64,000 bases of DNA from Sulfurivermis fontis (GTDB taxonomy: Bacteria > Pseudomonadota > Gammaproteobacteria > Thiohalomonadales > Thiohalomonadaceae), in assembly GCF_004001245.1 (NCBI RefSeq), contig NZ_AP018724.1:124001-188000 (forward strand). Reading direction: 5' to 3'. The translations under genes and the position numbers were made by a program. Positions within the stretch are counted from its first letter, which is position 1, and each line of letters starts with the position of its first letter. Positions 44,857 to 55,746 of this stretch are shown in pieces. The notes beneath the pieces were generated by a model. That model had not been told where the DNA came from. It saw nothing but the letters and a program-made list of their open reading frames with translations, and searched no databases.

Positions 44857-46278
44857 ATGGCAGGAAAGACTTATAACGCGGGCGTTAAAGAGTACCGCGA
44901 AACTTACTGGGATCCCAACTATACGCCGAAGGACAGCGACATCCTGGCCTGTTTCAAGGTCGTGCCGCAGGCCGGCGTACCGCGTGAAGAGGCCGCCGCT
45001 GCCGTATGTGCCGAGTCCTCCACCGCCACCTGGACCACGGTGTGGACCGACCTGCTGACCGACCTGGACTACTACAAGGGCCGTGCCTACGCCATCGAGG
45101 ACGTGCCGGGTGACGACGAGGCGTTCTATGCGTTCATCGCCTACCCCATGGGATTGTTCGAAGAAGGTTCCGTAGTCAACGTCTTTACCTCCCTGGTCGG
45201 TAACGTATTCGGTTTCAAGGCGGTGCGTTCGCTGCGTCTGGAAGACGTGCGCTTTCCGCTGTGGTTCGTGACCACCTGCGATGGTCCCCCGCACGGTATT
45301 CAGGTCGAGCGCGACAAACTGGACAAGTATGGCCGTCCGCTGCTGGGCTGCACCATCAAGCCGAAGTTGGGTCTGTCCGCCAAGAACTATGGCCGCGCCG
45401 TATACGAGTGCCTGCGCGGCGGTCTGGACTTCACCAAGGACGACGAAAACGTCAACTCCCAGCCGTTCATGCGTTGGCGCGATCGTTTCGAGTTCTGCCA
45501 GGAAGCCATCGAGAAAGCCGAGCGCGAGACCGGCGAGCGCAAGGGACACTACCTGAACGTGACCGGACCCAACATGGAAGAGATTTACAAGCGCGCGGAG
45601 TTCGCCAAGGAGATCGGTACTCCGATCATCATGTCCGACTACCTGACCATCGGCTGGGCCGCCCAGGCCAGTCTGGCGCGCTGGTGCCGTGATAACGGGA
45701 TGCTGCTGCATGTCCACCGTGCGATGCATGGTGTCATCGATCGCAATCCGAAGCACGGCATCAACTTCCGTGTGCTGGCCAAGATGGCACGTCTGCTCGG
45801 TGCCGACCACCTGCACTCTGGTACCGTCGTCGGCAAACTGGAGGGCGATCGCGATGCGACGCTCGGCTGGATCGATCAAATGCGTGAGCGTTATGTGAAG
45901 GAGGATCGTTCGCGCGGTATCTTCTTCGATCAGAACTGGGGCCACATGCCCGCCGTGATGCCTGTTGCTTCCGGTGGCATCCATGTCTGGCATATGCCCG
46001 CACTGGTTTCCATCTTCGGTGACGACTCCGTGCTGCAGTTCGGTGGTGGCACCATCGGCCATCCGTGGGGCAACGCCGCTGGCGCCGCTGCCAACCGCGT
46101 CGCACTGGAGGCCTGCGTGCAGGCCCGCAACGAAGGTCGTGTAATCGAGAAGGAAGGCAAGGATATTCTGACCAATGCCGCCAAATCCAGTCCTGAGCTG
46201 AAGATGGCGATGGAGACCTGGAAAGAGATCAAGTTCGAGTTCGACACCGTCGACAAGCTGGACGTGGCGCATAAGTAA
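44857..46278 (+). CDS. cbbL: RuBisCO large subunit, form I
   Basis: The 473-residue protein carboxylates ribulose bisphosphate in the Calvin cycle. Key elements are the catalytic lysine in [11 protein letters not shown] (near 167), the carbamylated lysine and metal ligands in [13 protein letters not shown] (near 192), [11 protein letters not shown] and the loop 6 [12 protein letters not shown]. Sequence is of the proteobacterial form IA type. The CbbQ/CbbO genes downstream suggest the IAq (non-carboxysomal) group, and no carboxysome genes are present. GGAGG precedes ATG 44857. Confidence 0.98.
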
Positions 46279-46345: not shown

Positions 46346-46393
46346 CGATTCCAGAACGCACACGAAGTTACGACTGAATTTGGAGTGAAGACC

Positions 46394-46753
46394 ATGAGCG
46401 AAATGCAAGACTACAATTCCCGCCTGTCGGATCCGAACAGCCGCAAGCTGGGCACCTTCTCCTACCTGCCGCAGATGGATGCCGACCAGATCCGCAAGCA
46501 GATCCAGTACATCGTCGACAAGGGTTGGAACCCGGCAATCGAGCATACCGAGCCGGAAGAGGCCGGCAGCCACTACTGGTACATGTGGAAACTGCCGATG
46601 TTCGGTGAAACCGACGTCAGTCGCATTCTCGACGAGATCGAGGCGTGCAAAAAGGCCAATCCTGGTCACCACGTCCGTCTCATCGGTTACGACAACATCA
46701 AGCAGTCCCAGGGTGCGAACATGATCGTACATCGTGCCCCGATCAAGTCCTGA
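46394..46753 (+). CDS. cbbS: RuBisCO small subunit
   Basis: The 119-residue protein starts [20 protein letters not shown] and has the family core [20 protein letters not shown], then [11 protein letters not shown] and [14 protein letters not shown]. It completes the L8S8 holoenzyme with cbbL. ATG 46394 is the family start; an upstream in-frame ATG lies inside the hairpin region. Confidence 0.97.
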
Positions 46754-46841: not shown

Positions 46842-47651
46842 ATGAGCGAAGTCAATCGCGATCAGTACTTGGTGAAGAGCGAACCCTACTACCATCCCGT
46901 GGCTGATGAAGTGGCACTCTATGAGGCCGCTTACAGCGTGCGCATGCCGGTCATGCTCAAGGGTCCGACGGGTTGCGGCAAATCCCGCTTCGTGGAATAC
47001 ATGGCATGGAAACTCGGCAAGCCACTGATCACTGTGGCGTGTAACGAGGATATGACCGCATCCGATCTGGTGGGTCGTTTTCTGCTCGATATCAATGGGA
47101 CCAAATGGCAGGATGGTCCATTGGCCATCGCTGCCCGCATCGGCGCCATCTGTTACCTCGATGAGGTGGTCGAAGCCCGCCAGGACACTACCGTGGTGAT
47201 CCATCCGCTGACTGACCATCGCCGACAACTACCGCTGGAGAAGAAGGGCGAGCTGATCAATGCCCATCCGGATTTCCAGATCGTCATCTCCTACAACCCA
47301 GGCTACCAAAGCCTGATGAAGGATCTGAAACAGTCGACCAAGCAGCGTTTCGGCGCCATGGATTTCGACTATCCGGCGGCCGAGATTGAGACCAAGATCG
47401 TGGCCCATGAGTCCGGTGTCGATGAAAAGACCGCCGCGAAGCTGGTACAGGTGGCACAGCGTTCGCGCAATCTAAAGGGACACGGCCTTGACGAGGGCAT
47501 CTCGACACGTCTGTTGGTCTATGCCGGGCAACTCATCGCCAAAGGCATCGACGCCAAGGCGGCCTGCCGCATGGCGCTGGCCCGTCCTCTCACCGACGAT
47601 CCGGATATGCGTGATACCCTCGACGCCGCCGTGGATACCTTCTTCGGCTAA
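46842..47651 (+). CDS. cbbQ: RuBisCO activase subunit CbbQ (MoxR AAA+ ATPase)
   Basis: The 269-residue AAA+ protein has Walker A in GPTGCGKS (near 39), a conserved [15 protein letters not shown] and Walker B in [14 protein letters not shown] (near 104). [16 protein letters not shown] follows. With CbbO it forms the hexameric QO activase, which removes inhibitory sugar phosphates from form I RuBisCO. ATG 46842 follows CGAGGAG; an upstream in-frame ATG is inside the hairpin. It is 74% or so similar by eye to the second copy at 55924. Confidence 0.95.
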
Positions 47652-47741: not shown

Positions 47742-50072
47742 ATGAGCGTTTCTCTTGATGATTACCGCGAGGAATTAATCCAAGCCGCACCGGCTTTGGC
47801 CGATACTCTGGATGGCATCTTCCACGAGGCGGCGCGCACCATGTCGCCCACCGGTCTGAAGGACTACATGGATGGGGCGCGCGGAATTATGAACCTGGGC
47901 AAGGGCTCGGCCTTGCTCACCACCTATCTGGAAGAAATGCCGTTGGTGGCCAGGGAGTGTGGCGACGATGTGATCCGCGATGCGGTTCACTCGGTAATGA
48001 AACTCGCCTCGATGGTTTCGGGAGAAGTGCTTACCCTGGTTTTTGCCACCCTCCCCACCGCCGCGCGCCGCCTCGGCGACCCCGAACTGCTACGTGCCTA
48101 TCTGCAACTGCTGCATCGGTTGGTCGCCAAGGCACCGCGCGGCCTGCGTCCCATGCTGGGCGTATTGGATGAACTGCTTGGTAAGTTGACACTTTCCGGT
48201 CTGCGCCGCTGGGTAGATTTCGGTGCCGAGGCCTACCGGCGCGACTTACCCAAGCAGGCCGCCTATTTCGGTTTGCAGAGCGAAGACAGCAAGGCGGTAT
48301 TGCAGCGCGAGCGGCGCGGCACTCTCTTTATCGACAATCAGCGCAAGCTCAATTTCTACCTGCGCGCCTTCTGGGGGCGGGATTTCTTCATGCGCCCGAG
48401 TGCTGCCGATTATCTCGGTTTCCGACCCTTTATCGAGGCGCGTGCTATGCACCTGCCCGATGCAGCCGATGACCTCGGCGATTTGACCGGACTCGATCTC
48501 TATCGCGCCATGGTGGCACATATGGCCGCCCATCTGGTCTATACCACGCAACCCCAGTCGGCCGAGGCGCTCGCACCGGCACAGATGTTCTTTGTCGGAT
48601 TTTTCGAAGATGCGCGGGTCGAGTATTGCGCCATCCGTGACTTTCCGGGCATGCGCCGGCTGTGGCGGTCTTTCATGGAGTTGCCCAAAGAGGGCAAGGC
48701 AGAACACGAATCGGTGCCCTTGCTGGAGCGTACGGCGCTGGCCTTGCTGGTCCCGGAGATCACTACCGGGGATGATGAAATCGACGCCATTGTGGCGCGA
48801 TTCCATACCAACATCGCGGCCAACGCCGAACACGGCATGTTTTCATGGCACCTGGGGCTCGATCTTTTCAATCTGTTATCACAGCGCAAGGCGGTGCCGA
48901 GCCTGCGTATCCTGGAAAACCTGCGCCTTCCCTACCGTGATGACAACCGCTTCGTCTGGTCGCTGGATCAACATGACTGGAACGAATCGACCGCCTATCT
49001 GCCGGCGAGCCAGCGTCAGGTGCGCCGCAAGGTCGGCTTGATGGAGTTCGTCAACGAGATCGACGTGGAAACCGCCGGCGATGACGCTCAGGAAATCTGG
49101 ACGCTGGAGACCGAACTCTTTCCCTATGAAGACGAAGGGGTGTCGTTCAACCAGATGGAGGGCAAGGAACCGGTTTCCGAGCCGTTTCATTACCAGGAGT
49201 GGGATTACCAGGTACAGTTGTACCGTCCCAATTGGGCAACTATCTACGAACGGCGCCAGAGTCGTGGTGATCCGGAAATCATCGATGAGGTGCTCACCGC
49301 CCACAAAGGCGTATCGCACCGTATCAAGCAGATCATCGATCGCCTGCGTCCGCAGGGCGTGTCGCGCATGCGCAAGCTGGAGGACGGTGACGAACTGGAT
49401 ATCAACGCTGCCGTGGAGGCGATGGTGGCGGCGCGCATGGGGCGCAATCCTGATCCACGCATCACGATGCGCTACGTAATCAATCGCCGCGACCTCGCGG
49501 TAGTGATCCTGCTCGATCTTTCCGAATCGACAAACGAGAAGGTGCGTGGCACTGACAAGACGGTAATTGATCTGACACGCGAAGCCTGTGCATTGGTGGC
49601 CACAGCCATCAACGGCATTGGCGACCCCTTTGCCATTCATGGTTTTGCCTCAGACGGACGCCATGATGTGCAGTATTACCATTTCAAGGATTTCGAGCAG
49701 CGTTTTGATGACGATGTCAAGAGCCGTCTTGCCGGCATGAGAGGTGGGCTGTCCACCCGCATGGGGGCCGCGATGCGCCACGCTGCCAGGCACCTGATGC
49801 AACGGAGCGAAAAACATAAGCTGCTGCTCATTGTTACCGATGGCGAGCCAGCCGATATCGATGAGCGTGATCCGCAATATTTGCGTCTGGATGCGAAAAA
49901 GGCAGCTGAGGAATTGCGCACCAAAGGTATCCTGAGCTACTGCCTTACCCTCGATCCCGAGGCAGACCGTTACGTGGAGCGGATCTTCGGCGCCAACAAC
50001 TACACCATAATCGATAACGTGCAGCGTCTGCCGGAAAAACTGCCGACGCTGTTTGCCAGCCTGACGCGCTGA
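47742..50072 (+). CDS. cbbO: RuBisCO activase adaptor CbbO (VWA domain)
   Basis: The 776-residue protein has a long helical N-terminal region and a C-terminal VWA domain (about 580-776). The MIDAS motif DLSES is in VVILLDLSESTNEK, with the later TRMGAAMRHA and LLIVTDGEPADID. CbbO recruits RuBisCO to the CbbQ hexamer, with the MIDAS binding an acidic residue of the large subunit. The TGA overlaps the next ATG by one base (TGATG), so the small gene is translationally coupled. Confidence 0.95.
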   Translation: MSVSLDDYREELIQAAPALADTLDGIFHEAARTMSPTGLKDYMDGARGIMNLGKGSALLTTYLEEMPLVARECGDDVIRDAVHSVMKLASMVSGEVLTLVFATLPTAARRLGDPELLRAYLQLLHRLVAKAPRGLRPMLGVLDELLGKLTLSGLRRWVDFGAEAYRRDLPKQAAYFGLQSEDSKAVLQRERRGTLFIDNQRKLNFYLRAFWGRDFFMRPSAADYLGFRPFIEARAMHLPDAADDLGDLTGLDLYRAMVAHMAAHLVYTTQPQSAEALAPAQMFFVGFFEDARVEYCAIRDFPGMRRLWRSFMELPKEGKAEHESVPLLERTALALLVPEITTGDDEIDAIVARFHTNIAANAEHGMFSWHLGLDLFNLLSQRKAVPSLRILENLRLPYRDDNRFVWSLDQHDWNESTAYLPASQRQVRRKVGLMEFVNEIDVETAGDDAQEIWTLETELFPYEDEGVSFNQMEGKEPVSEPFHYQEWDYQVQLYRPNWATIYERRQSRGDPEIIDEVLTAHKGVSHRIKQIIDRLRPQGVSRMRKLEDGDELDINAAVEAMVAARMGRNPDPRITMRYVINRRDLAVVILLDLSESTNEKVRGTDKTVIDLTREACALVATAINGIGDPFAIHGFASDGRHDVQYYHFKDFEQRFDDDVKSRLAGMRGGLSTRMGAAMRHAARHLMQRSEKHKLLLIVTDGEPADIDERDPQYLRLDAKKAAEELRTKGILSYCLTLDPEADRYVERIFGANNYTIIDNVQRLPEKLPTLFASLTR

Positions 50073-50449
50073 TGGCTGCGCGCCTCGATGATGTGCCGGT
50101 CTATGCCAGTCGGCCTGACGAGATTGGGGCGCGCCATTACAATCTGTGGCGCCGAGCACGGCAACGGTTCGGCCATCCGCTGCGTCTGGAATTGCCAGGC
50201 GTATCGGGGATGGAGCTGATTCTCGATGACGATGCCTGGGTGGTGGTGGATGTGCGCCAATTCGAACTGCCGATTCTGGCCTGGGTGGAGCTGCAGGGCG
50301 AACGTCGCAGCGCACTGCATCAACCGGTGCGATGCCAATTGAATTATTACCATTTTGCCGCGACGCGGCTTCGCGCCAAGGTGCTGGACATTCTGGAGCG
50401 TGCCCTGGAAGATAGATTGCGTTCGCCTCATCACGGAATATCCAAATAA
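50072..50449 (+). CDS. Small conserved protein coupled to cbbO, paralogue of the one before cbbL
   Basis: The 125-residue protein (MAARLDDVPVYASRPDEIGA) shares HYN, the GxPLRLxLxGVxGxE core, DDDAWVVVD, LAW, PVRC and YYH with the protein at 44209. Its longer C-terminus (LRAKVLDILERALEDRL) is helical. It has no recognised domain. Overlap with the cbbO stop suggests that it works with the CbbQO activase or RuBisCO assembly. Confidence 0.72.
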   Translation: MAARLDDVPVYASRPDEIGARHYNLWRRARQRFGHPLRLELPGVSGMELILDDDAWVVVDVRQFELPILAWVELQGERRSALHQPVRCQLNYYHFAATRLRAKVLDILERALEDRLRSPHHGISK

Positions 50450-50462
50450 GAGAGCCAAGCCG

Positions 50463-50792
50463 ATGAACAGCAGACCGCATGCGCCTCCGGGCCAGGTGAC
50501 CTATGTCGGCATTCATGACGATGATGATGGCGGCATGACCGCTCTTGGCTTGGTGGTGCGCGATGCGTGGGTGTTCGGCATCATCCCGGAGAACGAAAGC
50601 TGCAAAGGGTGGACTGCGCAACAGATGCAAGCGTTGTATGAGAAGGTGCACGCCGCCTGGGAGCCCTATGCCCACCTGCCCAGCCGCCTGCCGGAAGACT
50701 TGCGTACCCGCCATGCCCGCATCCACGATGCCGCGCTGGAGCGGGCCCGTGCCCAGGGTTGGGATGCCAGCCTGGACGATGAAGATGATTGA
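50463..50792 (+). CDS. Conserved hypothetical protein of the cbb cluster
   Basis: The 109-residue acidic protein starts MNSRPHAPPGQVTYVGIHDD, has VVRDAWVFGIIPENESCKGW and a helical tail (LYEKVHAAWEPYAHLPSRLP) ending in an acidic cap (LDDEDD). It is 13 bp past the preceding gene with no terminator between. No domain was recognised. Confidence 0.65.
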   Translation: MNSRPHAPPGQVTYVGIHDDDDGGMTALGLVVRDAWVFGIIPENESCKGWTAQQMQALYEKVHAAWEPYAHLPSRLPEDLRTRHARIHDAALERARAQGWDASLDDEDD

Positions 50793-50849: not shown

Positions 50850-51410
50850 ATGATCCGCAAGAATCCCAGCGGCGACCTGCCGATAATCCACGAGAGCGCC
50901 TTCGTCGATCCGACGGCGATCATCTGCGGCAAGGTGATCGTGCACGAGAACGTGTTCATCGGTCCCTATGCGGTGATCCGTGCCGATGAGGTGACTGCCG
51001 ACGGCGGCATGGAGCCGATCGTCATCGGCGCCAACTCCAATATCCAGGACGGCGTGGTGATCCACTCCAAGTCCGGTGCCGCGGTGACCATCGGCGAACA
51101 CAGCTCCATCGCCCACCGCTCCATCGTCCACGGCCCCTGCACGGTGGGTGACCGGGTGTTCATCGGTTTCAATTCGGTGCTGTTCAACTGTGTGATCGGC
51201 GCCGGCTCGGTGGTGCGCCACAACTCGGTGGTGGAAGGCTGCCACGTGCCGGAAGGGTTCCATATTCCGTCCACCACCAACATTCACAACGATGCCGATC
51301 TGGCCCGCATCCAGCCCGTCCCCGTGGACATGACCGCCTTTTCCGAGGACGTGGCCCGTACCAACGTCGACCTGGTGCGCGGCTACAAGCGTCTGGCGAA
51401 CGAATTCTGA
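50850..51410 (+). CDS. Gamma-class carbonic anhydrase-like protein
   Basis: The 186-residue left-handed beta-helix protein has hexapeptide repeats throughout. Zinc-ligand histidines are expected in GVVIHSKSG (near 72), IAHRSIVHGP (near 90-95) and the interface; the conserved VIRADE and NIQDGVVIH are present. It resembles Cam/CcmM-type gamma carbonic anhydrases. Inside a RuBisCO cluster it could supply carbon dioxide locally. Enzyme activity is inferred. Confidence 0.85.
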   Translation: MIRKNPSGDLPIIHESAFVDPTAIICGKVIVHENVFIGPYAVIRADEVTADGGMEPIVIGANSNIQDGVVIHSKSGAAVTIGEHSSIAHRSIVHGPCTVGDRVFIGFNSVLFNCVIGAGSVVRHNSVVEGCHVPEGFHIPSTTNIHNDADLARIQPVPVDMTAFSEDVARTNVDLVRGYKRLANEF

Positions 51411-51448
51411 GCGCCGGGCGCGCGATGCGGTAGGCAGGAGATAGCACG

Positions 51449-52645
51449 ATGCCGTTGGTGGACATGGGGGACATGCTGCGTCACGCCTATACCCATCGCT
51501 ATGCCGTGGGGGCGTTCGATCTGGTGAGTCTGGATTTTCTCCAGGCCATCATCGAGGGTGCCGAGGCCTGCGACGCGCCGGTGATTCTCAGTCTGGCCGA
51601 ATCCCACTTTGCGTATTTCGATCTGGAGCTGCTGATGCCGGCGGTGGAGGCGGCGGCACGGCGCAGTCGTGTGCCGGTGGCCATCCACCTGGACCATGGT
51701 GCCAGTCTGGAATCGGCCAGACGGGCGATTGCGCTTGGCTGCAACGGGGTGATGGTCGATACCTCGAGCCAGCCGTTTGCGGCGAATGTGGCGCGCAGCG
51801 CGGAGATCGTGCGTATGGCACACGCTTGCGGCGTCACCGTGGAGGGCGAGCTGGGCTATGTACCCGGTGTCGAGGGGGAGGATGCCGAGCGTCACCCCGG
51901 GGCGCTGGTCTACACCACGGTGGAAGAGGCGCGCGACTATGTGGCGCAGACCGGCGTCGATTGTCTGGCGGTGTCCATCGGTACGGTGCACGGCCACATG
52001 CGCGGTACGCCGGAACTGGATTTCGAGCGCCTCGCCGCCATCAACGCGGCGCTGCGCCTGCCGCTGGTGATCCATGGCGGCACCGGTCTGGGCGAGACAC
52101 AGTTCCGCCGCCTCATCGAGCACGGTGTGGCCAAGATCAATTACTACACCGCCCTGTCCGAGGCCGCTGCCGCGGCGATCCGCCGCCGTGCCCTGCAAAC
52201 TGACGCCGGTGGTTATACCGGCCTGGTGCGTGATGTACAGGCGGCGATTCGGGCAGAGGTGGAACGCTGCATCCGTCTGTGGGGCGGCGCCGGCCGTGCG
52301 GCGGACGTGCTGGCGCAGTGTCGCCCCTGGCACAACGTCGAGCACGTCATTCTGTACAACACGGCGGGTATGGCGGACGCGGACGCACATGCCATGATGG
52401 CGGAGGGACAGCGCGTGTTGGCGGCGATCCCCGGCGTGCGCCAGGTGGCGGTGGGGGAGGCGGTCGATGAGGCCGCGCGCTATCGCTACTGTTGGCTGAT
52501 CCGTTTTTCCGCTCAACCGGTCATTTCCGCCTATAAACATCACCCCGACCATGTGGATTTTGCCGACCGGTTGTTCCGGCCGGTGGCCGCAGACCGCGTC
52601 ACGGTGGATTTTGCACTGCGGAGTCACAACCAGGAGCTGTCCTGA
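51449..52645 (+). CDS. Class II fructose-bisphosphate aldolase with C-terminal Dabb domain
   Basis: The 398-residue protein has an aldolase barrel (about 1-270): VAIHLDHGASLESARRAI, SIGTVHGHMRG and VIHGGTGLGETQFRRL supply zinc and catalytic residues. Residues about 288-392 are unrelated and read as a Dabb-type alpha/beta-barrel domain (NVEHVILYNTAGMADADAH, YCWLIRFSAQPVISAYKHHP, HVDFADRLFRP). The barrel lacks the full length of CbbA, so a fused, specialised aldolase is likely. It may serve the Calvin cycle at the fructose- and sedoheptulose-bisphosphate steps. Confidence 0.82.
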   Translation: MPLVDMGDMLRHAYTHRYAVGAFDLVSLDFLQAIIEGAEACDAPVILSLAESHFAYFDLELLMPAVEAAARRSRVPVAIHLDHGASLESARRAIALGCNGVMVDTSSQPFAANVARSAEIVRMAHACGVTVEGELGYVPGVEGEDAERHPGALVYTTVEEARDYVAQTGVDCLAVSIGTVHGHMRGTPELDFERLAAINAALRLPLVIHGGTGLGETQFRRLIEHGVAKINYYTALSEAAAAAIRRRALQTDAGGYTGLVRDVQAAIRAEVERCIRLWGGAGRAADVLAQCRPWHNVEHVILYNTAGMADADAHAMMAEGQRVLAAIPGVRQVAVGEAVDEAARYRYCWLIRFSAQPVISAYKHHPDHVDFADRLFRPVAADRVTVDFALRSHNQELS

Positions 52646-52694: not shown

Positions 52695-52805
52695 GGATAA
52701 GCAATAACTTATCCATTCTATCAGTATTTCAGATTTTCTTTATGAAAATCGATCGAGTATCTTTTGCCCCGCGTTTTATACAGATACGGCTTCTGTGTAT
52801 ATGAT
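52695..52805 (+). promoter_or_regulatory. cbbM promoter with two inverted repeats
   Basis: GGATAAG-N6-CTTATCC (52695-52714) and GATTTTC-N5-GAAAATC (52732-52750) are perfect 7-bp dyads. A promoter candidate follows: TATACA (52777-52782), 17-bp spacer, TATGAT (52800-52805). The second dyad lies about 70 bp before the likely transcription start, a normal position for a LysR-type activator such as CbbR. The rest of the 220-bp gap is AT-rich. Confidence 0.5.
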
Positions 52806-52865: not shown

Positions 52866-54245
52866 ATGGATCAGTCCGCACGTTATGCTGACCTCTCGCT
52901 GAAAGAAGAGGATCTGATCGCCGGTGGCAAGCACATTCTGTGCGCCTACAAGATGAAGCCGGCCAAGGGTCATGGCTTCCTGGAAGTGGCTGCCCACTTC
53001 GCCGCCGAGTCTTCCACCGGTACCAACGTCGAAGTCTGCACCACCGACGAATTCACCAAGGGCGTCGACGCCCTGGTCTACCACATCGACGAAGCCACCG
53101 AAGAGATGCGCATTGCGTATCCGCTGGAGCTGTTCGACCGCAACGTCATCGACGGCCGCATGATGCTGGTCTCCTTCCTGACCCTGACCATCGGCAACAA
53201 CCAGGGCATGGGCGACTGCGAATACGCCAAGATGTACGACTTCTACATGCCGCGCCGCGCCATCGAGCTGTTCGATGGTCCGTCCAAGGGCATCTCCGAT
53301 CTGTGGCGCGTGCTGGGCCGTCCGGTGGTCGATGGCGGCTACATCTCCGGCACCATCATCAAGCCGAAGCTGGGCCTGCGTCCGGAGCCGTTCGCCAAGG
53401 CGGCCTATCAGTTCTGGCTGGGCGGCGACTTCATCAAGAACGACGAGCCGCAGGGTAACCAGGTGTTCGCTCCCATGAAGAAGGTCATGCCGCTGGTGTA
53501 TGACGCCATGAAGCGCGCCATGGACGAGACCGGCGAGGCCAAGATCTTCTCCGCCAACATCACCGCCGACGACCACCGCGAAATGATCGCCCGTGGCGAG
53601 TTCATCCTGGAGACCTTCGGTCCCGATGCTGACAAGGTGGCCTTCCTGGTCGACGGTTACGTCGGCGGCCCGGGCATGGTGACCACCGCCCGCCGTTACT
53701 TCGCCAACCAGTATCTGCACTACCATCGTGCCGGTCACGGCGCCGTGACCTCCCCCAGCTCCAAGCGCGGTTACACTGCCTACGTGCTGGCCAAGATGAG
53801 CCGTCTGCAGGGTGCCTCCGGTATCCACGTCGGCACCATGGGCTACGGTAAGATGGAAGGCTCCAAGGATGACCGCAACATCGCCTACATCTGCGAGCGC
53901 GACGAGTTCCAAGGCCCGGTCTACTACCAGAAGTGGTATGGCATGAAGCCCACCACCCCGATCATCTCCGGTGGCATGAACGCCCTGCGTCTGCCGGGTT
54001 TCTTCGAGAACCTGGGCCACGGCAATGTGATCAACACCGCCGGTGGCGGTTCCTACGGCCACATCGACTCCCCGGCCGCCGGTGCCAAGTCCCTGCGCCA
54101 GGCCTACGAGTGCTGGAAGGCCAAGGCCGATCCGATCGAGTGGGCCAAGGAGCACAAGGAGTTCGCCCGTGCGTTCGAGTCGTTCCCGCACGACGCCGAC
54201 AGGCTCTATCCGGGCTGGCGCGAAAAGCTGGGCGTGCATAAGTAA
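52866..54245 (+). CDS. cbbM: RuBisCO, form II
   Basis: The 459-residue enzyme has the catalytic lysine in [14 protein letters not shown] (near 166), the carbamylated lysine in [14 protein letters not shown] (near 191), [13 protein letters not shown] and the loop 6 [12 protein letters not shown]. Form II RuBisCO is a homodimer or small oligomer suited to high carbon dioxide and low oxygen. A strong terminator follows directly. Its QO genes are split from it by an insertion sequence. Confidence 0.98.
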
Positions 54246-54532: not shown

Positions 54533-55746
54533 TGGACCCTCACGGGCCGACGGCATCGAAGTGCCCAAGGTGGAAGATACTGAAGGTCTTCACAGGCAAA
54601 CCGGAGGGTCCGAAATGAATGGTAGCAAAACGGTCGTTGGCGTGGATATCGCCAAGCGGGTATTTCAGTTGCACTGGATCGACATGGAGACCGGAGAGAT
54701 CGTGAGCCTGCAGCTCAAGCGCGAGAAGTTCCTCGAACACTTCGCTAACCGGCAACCATGCCTCATTGGGATGGAAGCCTGCGGCGGTGCGCAGCACTGG
54801 GCGAGGAAACTCACGGCGCTGGGCCACCAGGTCAAGCTCCTGCCAGGCAAGGCGGTGAAGCCGTTCGTCACCGGCAACAAGAACGACCGGCAGGACGCGC
54901 GGGCGATCTGGACAGCGGTGCAGCAGCCGCACGTCAAGGCGGTGGCGATCAAGACGGAAGAACAGCAGGCCATCCTGGCGCTGCACCGCATGAGGAGCCA
55001 GTTGGTCAAGTTCCGCACCGCGCAGATTAACGGCCTGCGGGGGTTGCTCGCCGAATACGGTGAAGTGATGCCGCAGGGCAAAGCGGGGGTCAGGAAGGGA
55101 ATTGCTGCGGCTTTGGCCAGACTGGAAGACCGGCTGCCGGCAATGGTGATCGATACGTTGCGCGAGCAATGGGCGCGCATCGAGAAGCTGGATGGGGAAA
55201 TCGCCGCCATCGAGCAGCGCATCCAGCTGTGGCTCAAGCAAGACGAAGCTTGCAAGCGAATCGCTGAAATTCCTGGTGTCGGGCCGCTGACCGCCACGGC
55301 GGCGGTCGCCATCATGGGCGACGCCAAAGCCTTCAAGTCGGGGCGAGAGTTCGCCGCCTTCGCCGGCCTGGTGCCGCGACAGGTGGGCACTGGTGGGCGC
55401 ATCAAACTGCTCGGCATCAGCAAGCGCAGTGACACCTACCTGCGCACCTTGCTGATTCACGGTGCGCGATCCGTGCTGACCCACGCCAAAGACCCCGGCC
55501 CGTGGGTCACGAAATTACGCCAGCGCCGGCCGCTGAATGTCGCGGTCGTGGCCCTGGCCAACAAGATGGCGCGAACGATCTGGGCGATGCTCGCCCATGA
55601 ACGGACGTACCAAAAGGGATTCGTCAGTCAGCCGGCATAGGTGCCTGACGAGTGTATCAACCACTTTGAAGAAAGGAGTGGCCGCCGTAAAGGTTGCGCA
55701 AGGTCGATAAAGTGTGATGGCAAACAGGTCAGACCGTGACCCGCCA
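54533..55746 (+). mobile_element. IS110-family insertion sequence (IS1111 type)
   Basis: The element is marked by subterminal inverted repeats, TGGACCCTCACGGGCCGAC at 54533-54551 and the complement of TGGCGGGTCACGGTCTGAC at 55728-55746 (13 of 19 match). Outer limits lie a few bases beyond and cannot be fixed, as IS1111 elements make no clear duplication. It encodes one DEDD transposase. It separates cbbM from cbbQ2-cbbO2. Confidence 0.8.
54615..55640 (+). CDS. IS110/IS1111-family transposase (DEDD recombinase)
   Basis: The 341-residue protein has an N-terminal DEDD (RuvC-like) domain: VVGVDIAKRVFQLHW (first Asp), GMEACGGAQHWARKL (Glu) and KNDRQDARAIW (Asp pair). A coiled coil is followed by the C-terminal domain with IPGVGPLTATAAVAIMG, FAAFAGLVPRQVGTGG and GARSVLTHAK, where the catalytic serine lies. 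ATG 54615 follows GGAGGG; the frame continues upstream into the left end. It is intact and probably active, using a bridge RNA. Confidence 0.93.
   Translation: MNGSKTVVGVDIAKRVFQLHWIDMETGEIVSLQLKREKFLEHFANRQPCLIGMEACGGAQHWARKLTALGHQVKLLPGKAVKPFVTGNKNDRQDARAIWTAVQQPHVKAVAIKTEEQQAILALHRMRSQLVKFRTAQINGLRGLLAEYGEVMPQGKAGVRKGIAAALARLEDRLPAMVIDTLREQWARIEKLDGEIAAIEQRIQLWLKQDEACKRIAEIPGVGPLTATAAVAIMGDAKAFKSGREFAAFAGLVPRQVGTGGRIKLLGISKRSDTYLRTLLIHGARSVLTHAKDPGPWVTKLRQRRPLNVAVVALANKMARTIWAMLAHERTYQKGFVSQPA

Follow-up and report, generated by a model that had tools for sequence, protein, structure and literature searches.

A class II aldolase fused to a Dabb domain in a RuBisCO gene cluster of Sulfurivermis fontis

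Introduction

In A. ferrooxidans, the cbbA gene of the cbb1 operon (ACK80290.1, AFE_1676) encodes a protein in which Pfam01116 and Pfam07876 occur in one chain, an arrangement on record since 2010 (PMC2942843, Table 3). This gene is the last one listed in a cbbLS...cbbQO operon that also carries carboxysome genes; RT-PCR showed that the operon, the equivalent of the one described here, is a single transcript (PMC2942843), and its expression has been the subject of a further study (PMC6458275). A second A. ferrooxidans cbbA gene, with Pfam01116 only, is located after pykA.

The aldolase half resembles the class II fructose-1,6-bisphosphate (FBP) aldolases (FBAs), such as those of S. aureus (4to8) and B. 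anthracis (3q94) and FbaA of E. coli, for which the roles of His110, His226, His264, Glu182 and Asp109 have been described (PMC11194214). Asp288 is required for FbaA activity (PMC5434028), and the Arg at the R331 position provides the contact of the partner subunit to carbon 6 of FBP (PMC4973958). YdjI of E. coli (6ofu), an L-glycero-L-galacto-octuluronate-1-phosphate aldolase, has the same barrel and zinc site, acts on another ketose phosphate and lacks the Arg that contacts the C6 phosphate. The Dabb fold is known from stand-alone proteins, including olivetolic acid cyclase (OAC) (5b08, 3bde and 3bgu). Here, we compare these systems with a fusion gene found in a 64,000-nucleotide stretch of the S. 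fontis genome, hereafter the window.

Domain composition of the fusion protein

The fusion gene is one open reading frame (51449-52645, + strand) that begins with ATG and encodes 398 amino acids, and a Shine-Dalgarno-like AGGAG (51436-51440, +) is located 8 nt ahead of the start codon. An overlapping ORF of 414 amino acids on the minus strand (51383-52627) was regarded as a mere shadow ORF of the coding strand. Pfam detected F_bP_aldolase (PF01116) at residues 5-283 (283.9 bits, cut-off 25.5, E 1.9e-84) and Dabb (PF07876) at residues 297-388 (46.0 bits, cut-off 25, E 8.9e-12). The class II aldolase domain was delimited to residues 1-284 (51449-52300, +) and the Dabb domain to residues 297-388 (52337-52612, +).

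The AlphaFold2 model of the whole single chain had a mean pLDDT of 91.7 and a pTM of 0.90. Residues 1-290 of this model superpose on solved class II aldolases with Z scores of 38-40 and rmsd values of 1.2-2.2, and the solved aldolases of the same subgroup stop at about model residue 284-290. Because the rows of the structural alignment spanned residues 1-290 only, the tail was also predicted and searched alone. Its AlphaFold2 model (pLDDT 92.9) matched the Dabb crystal structures 3bde, 3bgu and OAC in Foldseek with E-values from 2e-9 to 1e-6, and the match to 3bde (E 2.4e-9, TM 0.79-0.85) corresponds to the ferredoxin-like Dabb fold. The idea that the tail is an ordinary aldolase extension was rejected on the basis of the Pfam match, the fold of the isolated tail and the end of the solved aldolases ahead of it. 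The initial annotation had described an aldolase barrel joined to a Dabb-like tail; Pfam, AlphaFold2 and Foldseek agree with this domain call and its coordinates, and two of the checks that it had proposed, the structure prediction of the tail and a survey of homologues, bore it out, the latter by finding both halves in full-length homologues of 50-70% identity. The protein combines an N-terminal zinc (class II) DHAP-enolate-type aldolase, which retains its catalytic residues, with a C-terminal Dabb domain.

Operon context and distribution

The genes cbbL-cbbS-cbbQ-cbbO-ORF125-ORF110-gamma-CA-like-fusion follow each other on the + strand with short gaps. cbbL, for the large subunit of a green form I RuBisCO (44857-46278, +), precedes cbbS, for the small subunit (46391-46753, +), cbbQ, for an AAA+ RuBisCO activase subunit (46842-47651, +), and cbbO, identified as its activase partner by similarity and position (47742-50072, +). 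Next come two small conserved genes, ORF125 (125 aa; 50072-50449, +), which belongs to no Pfam family and whose relatives occupy the same place, after cbbO and ahead of the fusion gene, at many loci, and ORF110 (110 aa; 50460-50792, +), which has no Pfam match above cut-off and is recurrent in cbb clusters. A gene for a gamma-carbonic anhydrase (gamma-CA)/CcmM-N-like hexapeptide protein (50850-51410, +) is located 39 bp ahead of the fusion gene. Its product scores below all NCBIfam equivalog cut-offs, and no carboxysome genes were noticed in the examined part of the window, despite the presence of this gene in the cbb operon. Based on the spacing, we infer that the fusion gene closes a cbbLSQO operon.

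The fusion protein corresponds to the A. ferrooxidans cbb1 CbbA in having both domains in one chain and in being encoded in a cbb cluster after an activase gene, and the cbb1/cbb3 layout of A. ferrooxidans also matches this genome. Unlike the A. ferrooxidans operon, with its carboxysome genes, this cluster has the gamma-CA-like gene and two small ORFs as intervening genes, and cbbM follows. The initial annotation knew of no such fusion as standard; this view has to be abandoned, since the fusion is full-length in at least 80 GTDB species and was recorded for A. ferrooxidans in 2010 (PMC2942843). The possibility that the fusion is novel was rejected on Table 3 of that paper and the 80 homologous loci. 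A keyword search of the literature for Dabb-FBA returned only PMC2942843 as relevant. The fusion itself is thus already known, and the gene described here adds one more member. A Hydrogenophilus thermoluteolus aldolase is reportedly named in the Pfam Dabb entry.

Scanning GTDB genomes identified 167 related places, of which 80 were kept as full-length homologues of about 56-70% identity, mostly from gammaproteobacterial records, with some from beta- and alphaproteobacteria. To relate the fusion to RuBisCO, 276 genomes were sampled from the class, and those with a match at E 1e-60 or better (45/276) were counted as carriers. The RuBisCO small subunit was present in 42/45 carriers and in 73/231 non-carriers (Fisher p 2.5e-15, odds ratio 30, with kinship ignored), and one of the three carriers without it had the large subunit (PF00016). 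RuBisCO or activase genes were located within 8 kb at 50 of the 140 loci read, and in 39 of the 140, a CbbO or CbbX gene of the same strand lay no more than 1.5 kb upstream of the fusion gene. Green form I (31), red form I (10) and form II (2) RuBisCO types were represented at fusion loci. A location shortly downstream of an activase gene recurs in clusters of all three types, and this association, seen with unrelated kinds of RuBisCO, is the most telling synteny. Only a divergent LysR-type regulator adjoined the gene at 15 of the 140 loci, and at seven nothing but genes for carbonic anhydrase or SbtA-like transporters, named from sequence and not by family search, was nearby; for the remaining 68, the available DNA showed neither cbb nor LysR nor inorganic-carbon genes as neighbours, and some of these contigs end there. 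A link of the fusion to the RuBisCO cluster, as initially proposed, is supported by both the conserved synteny and the co-occurrence.

Aldolase active site

We aligned the family with E. coli FbaA, GatY and YdjI and with S. aureus FBA. Residues D82, H83, E134, E142, H181, H209, K229, N231 and T234 are kept in the fusion, and seven of them (D82, H83, H181, H209, K229, N231 and T234) are invariant among 84 homologues. H83, H181, H209, D82 and E142 align with H110, H226, H264, D109 and E182 of FbaA, respectively. The fusion shares with the class II FBAs the barrel, the zinc ligands, the catalytic Asp and Glu, and the GGTG and K-x-N motifs. It differs from them, in addition to the C-terminal Dabb domain, at four positions that read N/S/D-or-N/R in E. 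coli FbaA and S. aureus FBA: D24 stands for N35 of FbaA (83/84 homologues), A50 for S61 (82/84), Y233 for D288 (81/84) and T257 for R331 (77/84), with Arg at the last position in none of the 84. All four are acceptor-side positions of the FBP site, a role that we assume for Asn35 and Ser61 of FbaA. YdjI, which has no Dabb domain, carries other residues at the D24, A50 and Y233 positions and lies in another gene context.

Among the NCBIfam models, TIGR00167, a broad ketose-bisphosphate aldolase model, was barely passed (221.9 versus 215.6 bits), and all FBA equivalog models were missed (TIGR01859, 237.4 versus 343.05 bits); the best model, PRK06801 (ketose 1,6-bisphosphate aldolase), was below its cut-off. 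The genome contains two PF01116 genes, the fusion gene and a canonical FBA gene beside pyruvate kinase at 3.11 Mb, and exactly one Dabb domain at the family cut-off, in the fusion gene. The canonical FBA rules out the fusion as the sole FBA of its genome, and a second, canonical class II FBA-like match was found in 12 of the 12 carrier genomes that are at least 90% complete, including this one. A profile search for class I FBA (PF00274) detected nothing even in control genomes and therefore carries no weight here.

The initial annotation had called the barrel a fructose-bisphosphate aldolase. The class II aldolase barrel stands; the FBP identity is doubtful, because other residues occupy the acceptor side throughout the family and the genome has a canonical FBA as well. 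These two observations, the latter extending to other carriers, and the failed FBA equivalogs are the reasons why we did not file the fusion as an FBA. The Arg-to-Thr and Ser-to-Ala replacements may nevertheless be compatible with FBP activity: K229 and E142 remain, and a neighbouring subunit could provide the lost phosphate contact through its Dabb domain or through Arg377 within it.

Dabb pocket

The Dabb domain has a conserved pocket formed by H299, N304, W349, Y362, H365, H368 and R377. The set H5, Y72 and H78 of OAC is matched in the fusions by H299 (83/84), Y362 (81/84) and H368 (83/84), and N304, G320, W349 and H365 are invariant among the homologues. Unlike OAC and 3bde, which are stand-alone proteins, the fusions have N304, W349 and R377, which are near-invariant among them and differ in the aligned OAC and 3bde sequences. 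This conservation suggests a pocket with a conserved ligand and not a mere dimer interface. The Tyr/His pocket is common to other Dabb proteins and hence may not be specific. The polyketide context that would accompany an OAC-like role was not seen among the neighbours in the window, which are cbb genes, and the protein was not filed as a cyclase.

Divergent members of the family

Re-aligning 60 loci of related genomes with the 84-row alignment showed 15 rows of at least 340 aa that lacked two or more of D82, H83, H181 and H209. The Dabb pocket is kept despite the lost aldolase site in genomes G012, G008, G016, G055, G077 and G260, and nearly so in the second copy of G020. In G012, a single-contig genome, the three zinc His residues are replaced by R, Q and E. 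In G016 (76 versus 36%), G077 (71 versus 44%) and G260 (71 versus 44%), the Dabb domain agrees with the family consensus much better than the aldolase domain does, the opposite of the usual order, and Pfam still detects both domains in all six members of this kind that were scanned. The reverse also occurs: the members of G053, G015b, G013b, G011, G094 and G054 keep the aldolase residues with an altered Dabb pocket, and Dabb is undetected by Pfam in G053 and G013b. Part of the decay may reflect general relaxation, because some divergent members (G092, G293, G205 and G099) have both domains decayed. On the tree, the lost aldolase state requires six changes, two of them forced by strongly supported branches; some placements are unsure owing to long branches. 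The persistence of the Dabb pocket where the aldolase site has decayed argues for a role of the domain beyond holding together an active aldolase, and the two patterns of decay suggest that the halves of the fusion are under separate selection. We found no paper on a changed acceptor site or on pseudo-aldolase members, in a literature short on subscription journals.

Three groups of loci showed further features. The G012 member (7910-9022 of L170) is located between sahH/metF-like and trpG-trpD-trpC-like genes, neighbours that resemble those of the A. ferrooxidans cbb3/cbb4 operons. A supported clade (L126, L135 and L141-L144), whose members mostly lie in operons for a green form I RuBisCO, carries Gln at two positions, that of the zinc ligand H181 and that of H80 (TVQGR motif). 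In G055 (L161/L094), two aldolase relatives are adjacent and divergently placed near cbbL/cbbS, and one of them is the decayed aldolase with the Dabb pocket kept.

Functional interpretation

We favour, with a probability of about 0.5, the reading that the fusion acts for the RuBisCO module as a zinc aldolase of the DHAP type, that its acceptor specificity is altered and that its Dabb domain is under selection of its own. As a member of that gene module, the enzyme would likely still bind DHAP through its zinc and phosphate site. The partner aldehyde, or the ketose phosphate cleaved, would likely not be that of FBP, given that the family throughout has other residues at the positions that hold the distal half of FBP and that the genome encodes a normal FBA elsewhere. 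The Dabb domain, which probably dimerises, would carry a ligand or substrate pocket composed of the OAC-like Tyr/His set and the family-specific Arg and Trp, and its function is likely selected apart from that of the aldolase. The main rival, which we consider somewhat unlikely, is a plain Calvin-cycle fructose/sedoheptulose-bisphosphate aldolase (CbbA) in which the added Dabb domain serves for dimerisation and determines the oligomer. It agrees with the place of the gene in the operon, with the annotation of the A. ferrooxidans counterpart as a cotranscribed cbbA, EC 4.1.2.13 (PMC2942843, PMC6458275), with the retention of every catalytic residue and with the score above the TIGR00167 cut-off. 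However, the replacement of the acceptor-side residues in nearly all 84 homologues, the wide distance from the FBA equivalogs and the canonical FBA in each near-complete carrier genome compared speak against it, and pure dimerisation leaves the conservation of the Dabb pocket in aldolase-decayed members unexplained.

Those same members, with the six intact/lost changes inferred on the tree, would fit a barrel that is mainly a scaffold, its aldolase activity ancestral and dispensable, with the Dabb domain as the working sensor or small enzyme of the RuBisCO module. We regard this as quite improbable: the protein in the window and its 84 close relatives keep every catalytic residue, several RuBisCO-linked members decay in the opposite direction, and only two of the changes are forced by strongly supported branches. 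That the fusion is a neutral or chance join with no function of its own is very improbable indeed; the loss of one domain in some lineages would agree with it, but the fusion persists at full length across species at 56-70% identity, with four invariant Dabb residues.

Under the favoured reading of an aldolase with altered acceptor specificity, the fusion might, speculatively, handle a sugar phosphate that is formed or set free in the vicinity of RuBisCO, e.g., a misfire product freed by the activase. Xylulose-1,5-bisphosphate has FBP-like stereochemistry and would be split to DHAP and glycolaldehyde phosphate, which would fit a shorter acceptor and the place near the activase gene; a tie to such a RuBisCO by-product is a guess with a small chance of being right. 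More generally, and only as a tentative proposal that is rather unlikely as it stands, the cbbA of RuBisCO operons may be a repair or salvage enzyme for a RuBisCO-specific sugar phosphate, with the Dabb domain as a second, independently selected active or sensing site that would be functional alone in several lineages. A gene regarded as that of a Calvin-cycle aldolase seems to have lost part of its FBP site while staying in RuBisCO operons near the activase, and the relatives with a Dabb pocket and no aldolase site suggest, from their sequences, a further RuBisCO-tied activity. It is this reading of the family, rather than the fusion itself, that would matter.

Region downstream of the fusion gene

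The fusion gene is followed by cbbM, which encodes a form II RuBisCO (52866-54245, +) and is located 220 bp downstream, then by an IS110-type transposase gene and a second cbbQ/cbbO pair. A promoter-like match between the fusion gene and cbbM (52777-52805) was no better than chance. The same gap contains an inverted repeat, GGATAAGTTATTGCTTATCC, at 52695-52714, a possible terminator or regulator site. The IS110-family transposase gene (54612-55640) splits an apparent form II RuBisCO-activase cluster, with cbbM on one side and the second cbbQ/cbbO pair on the other.
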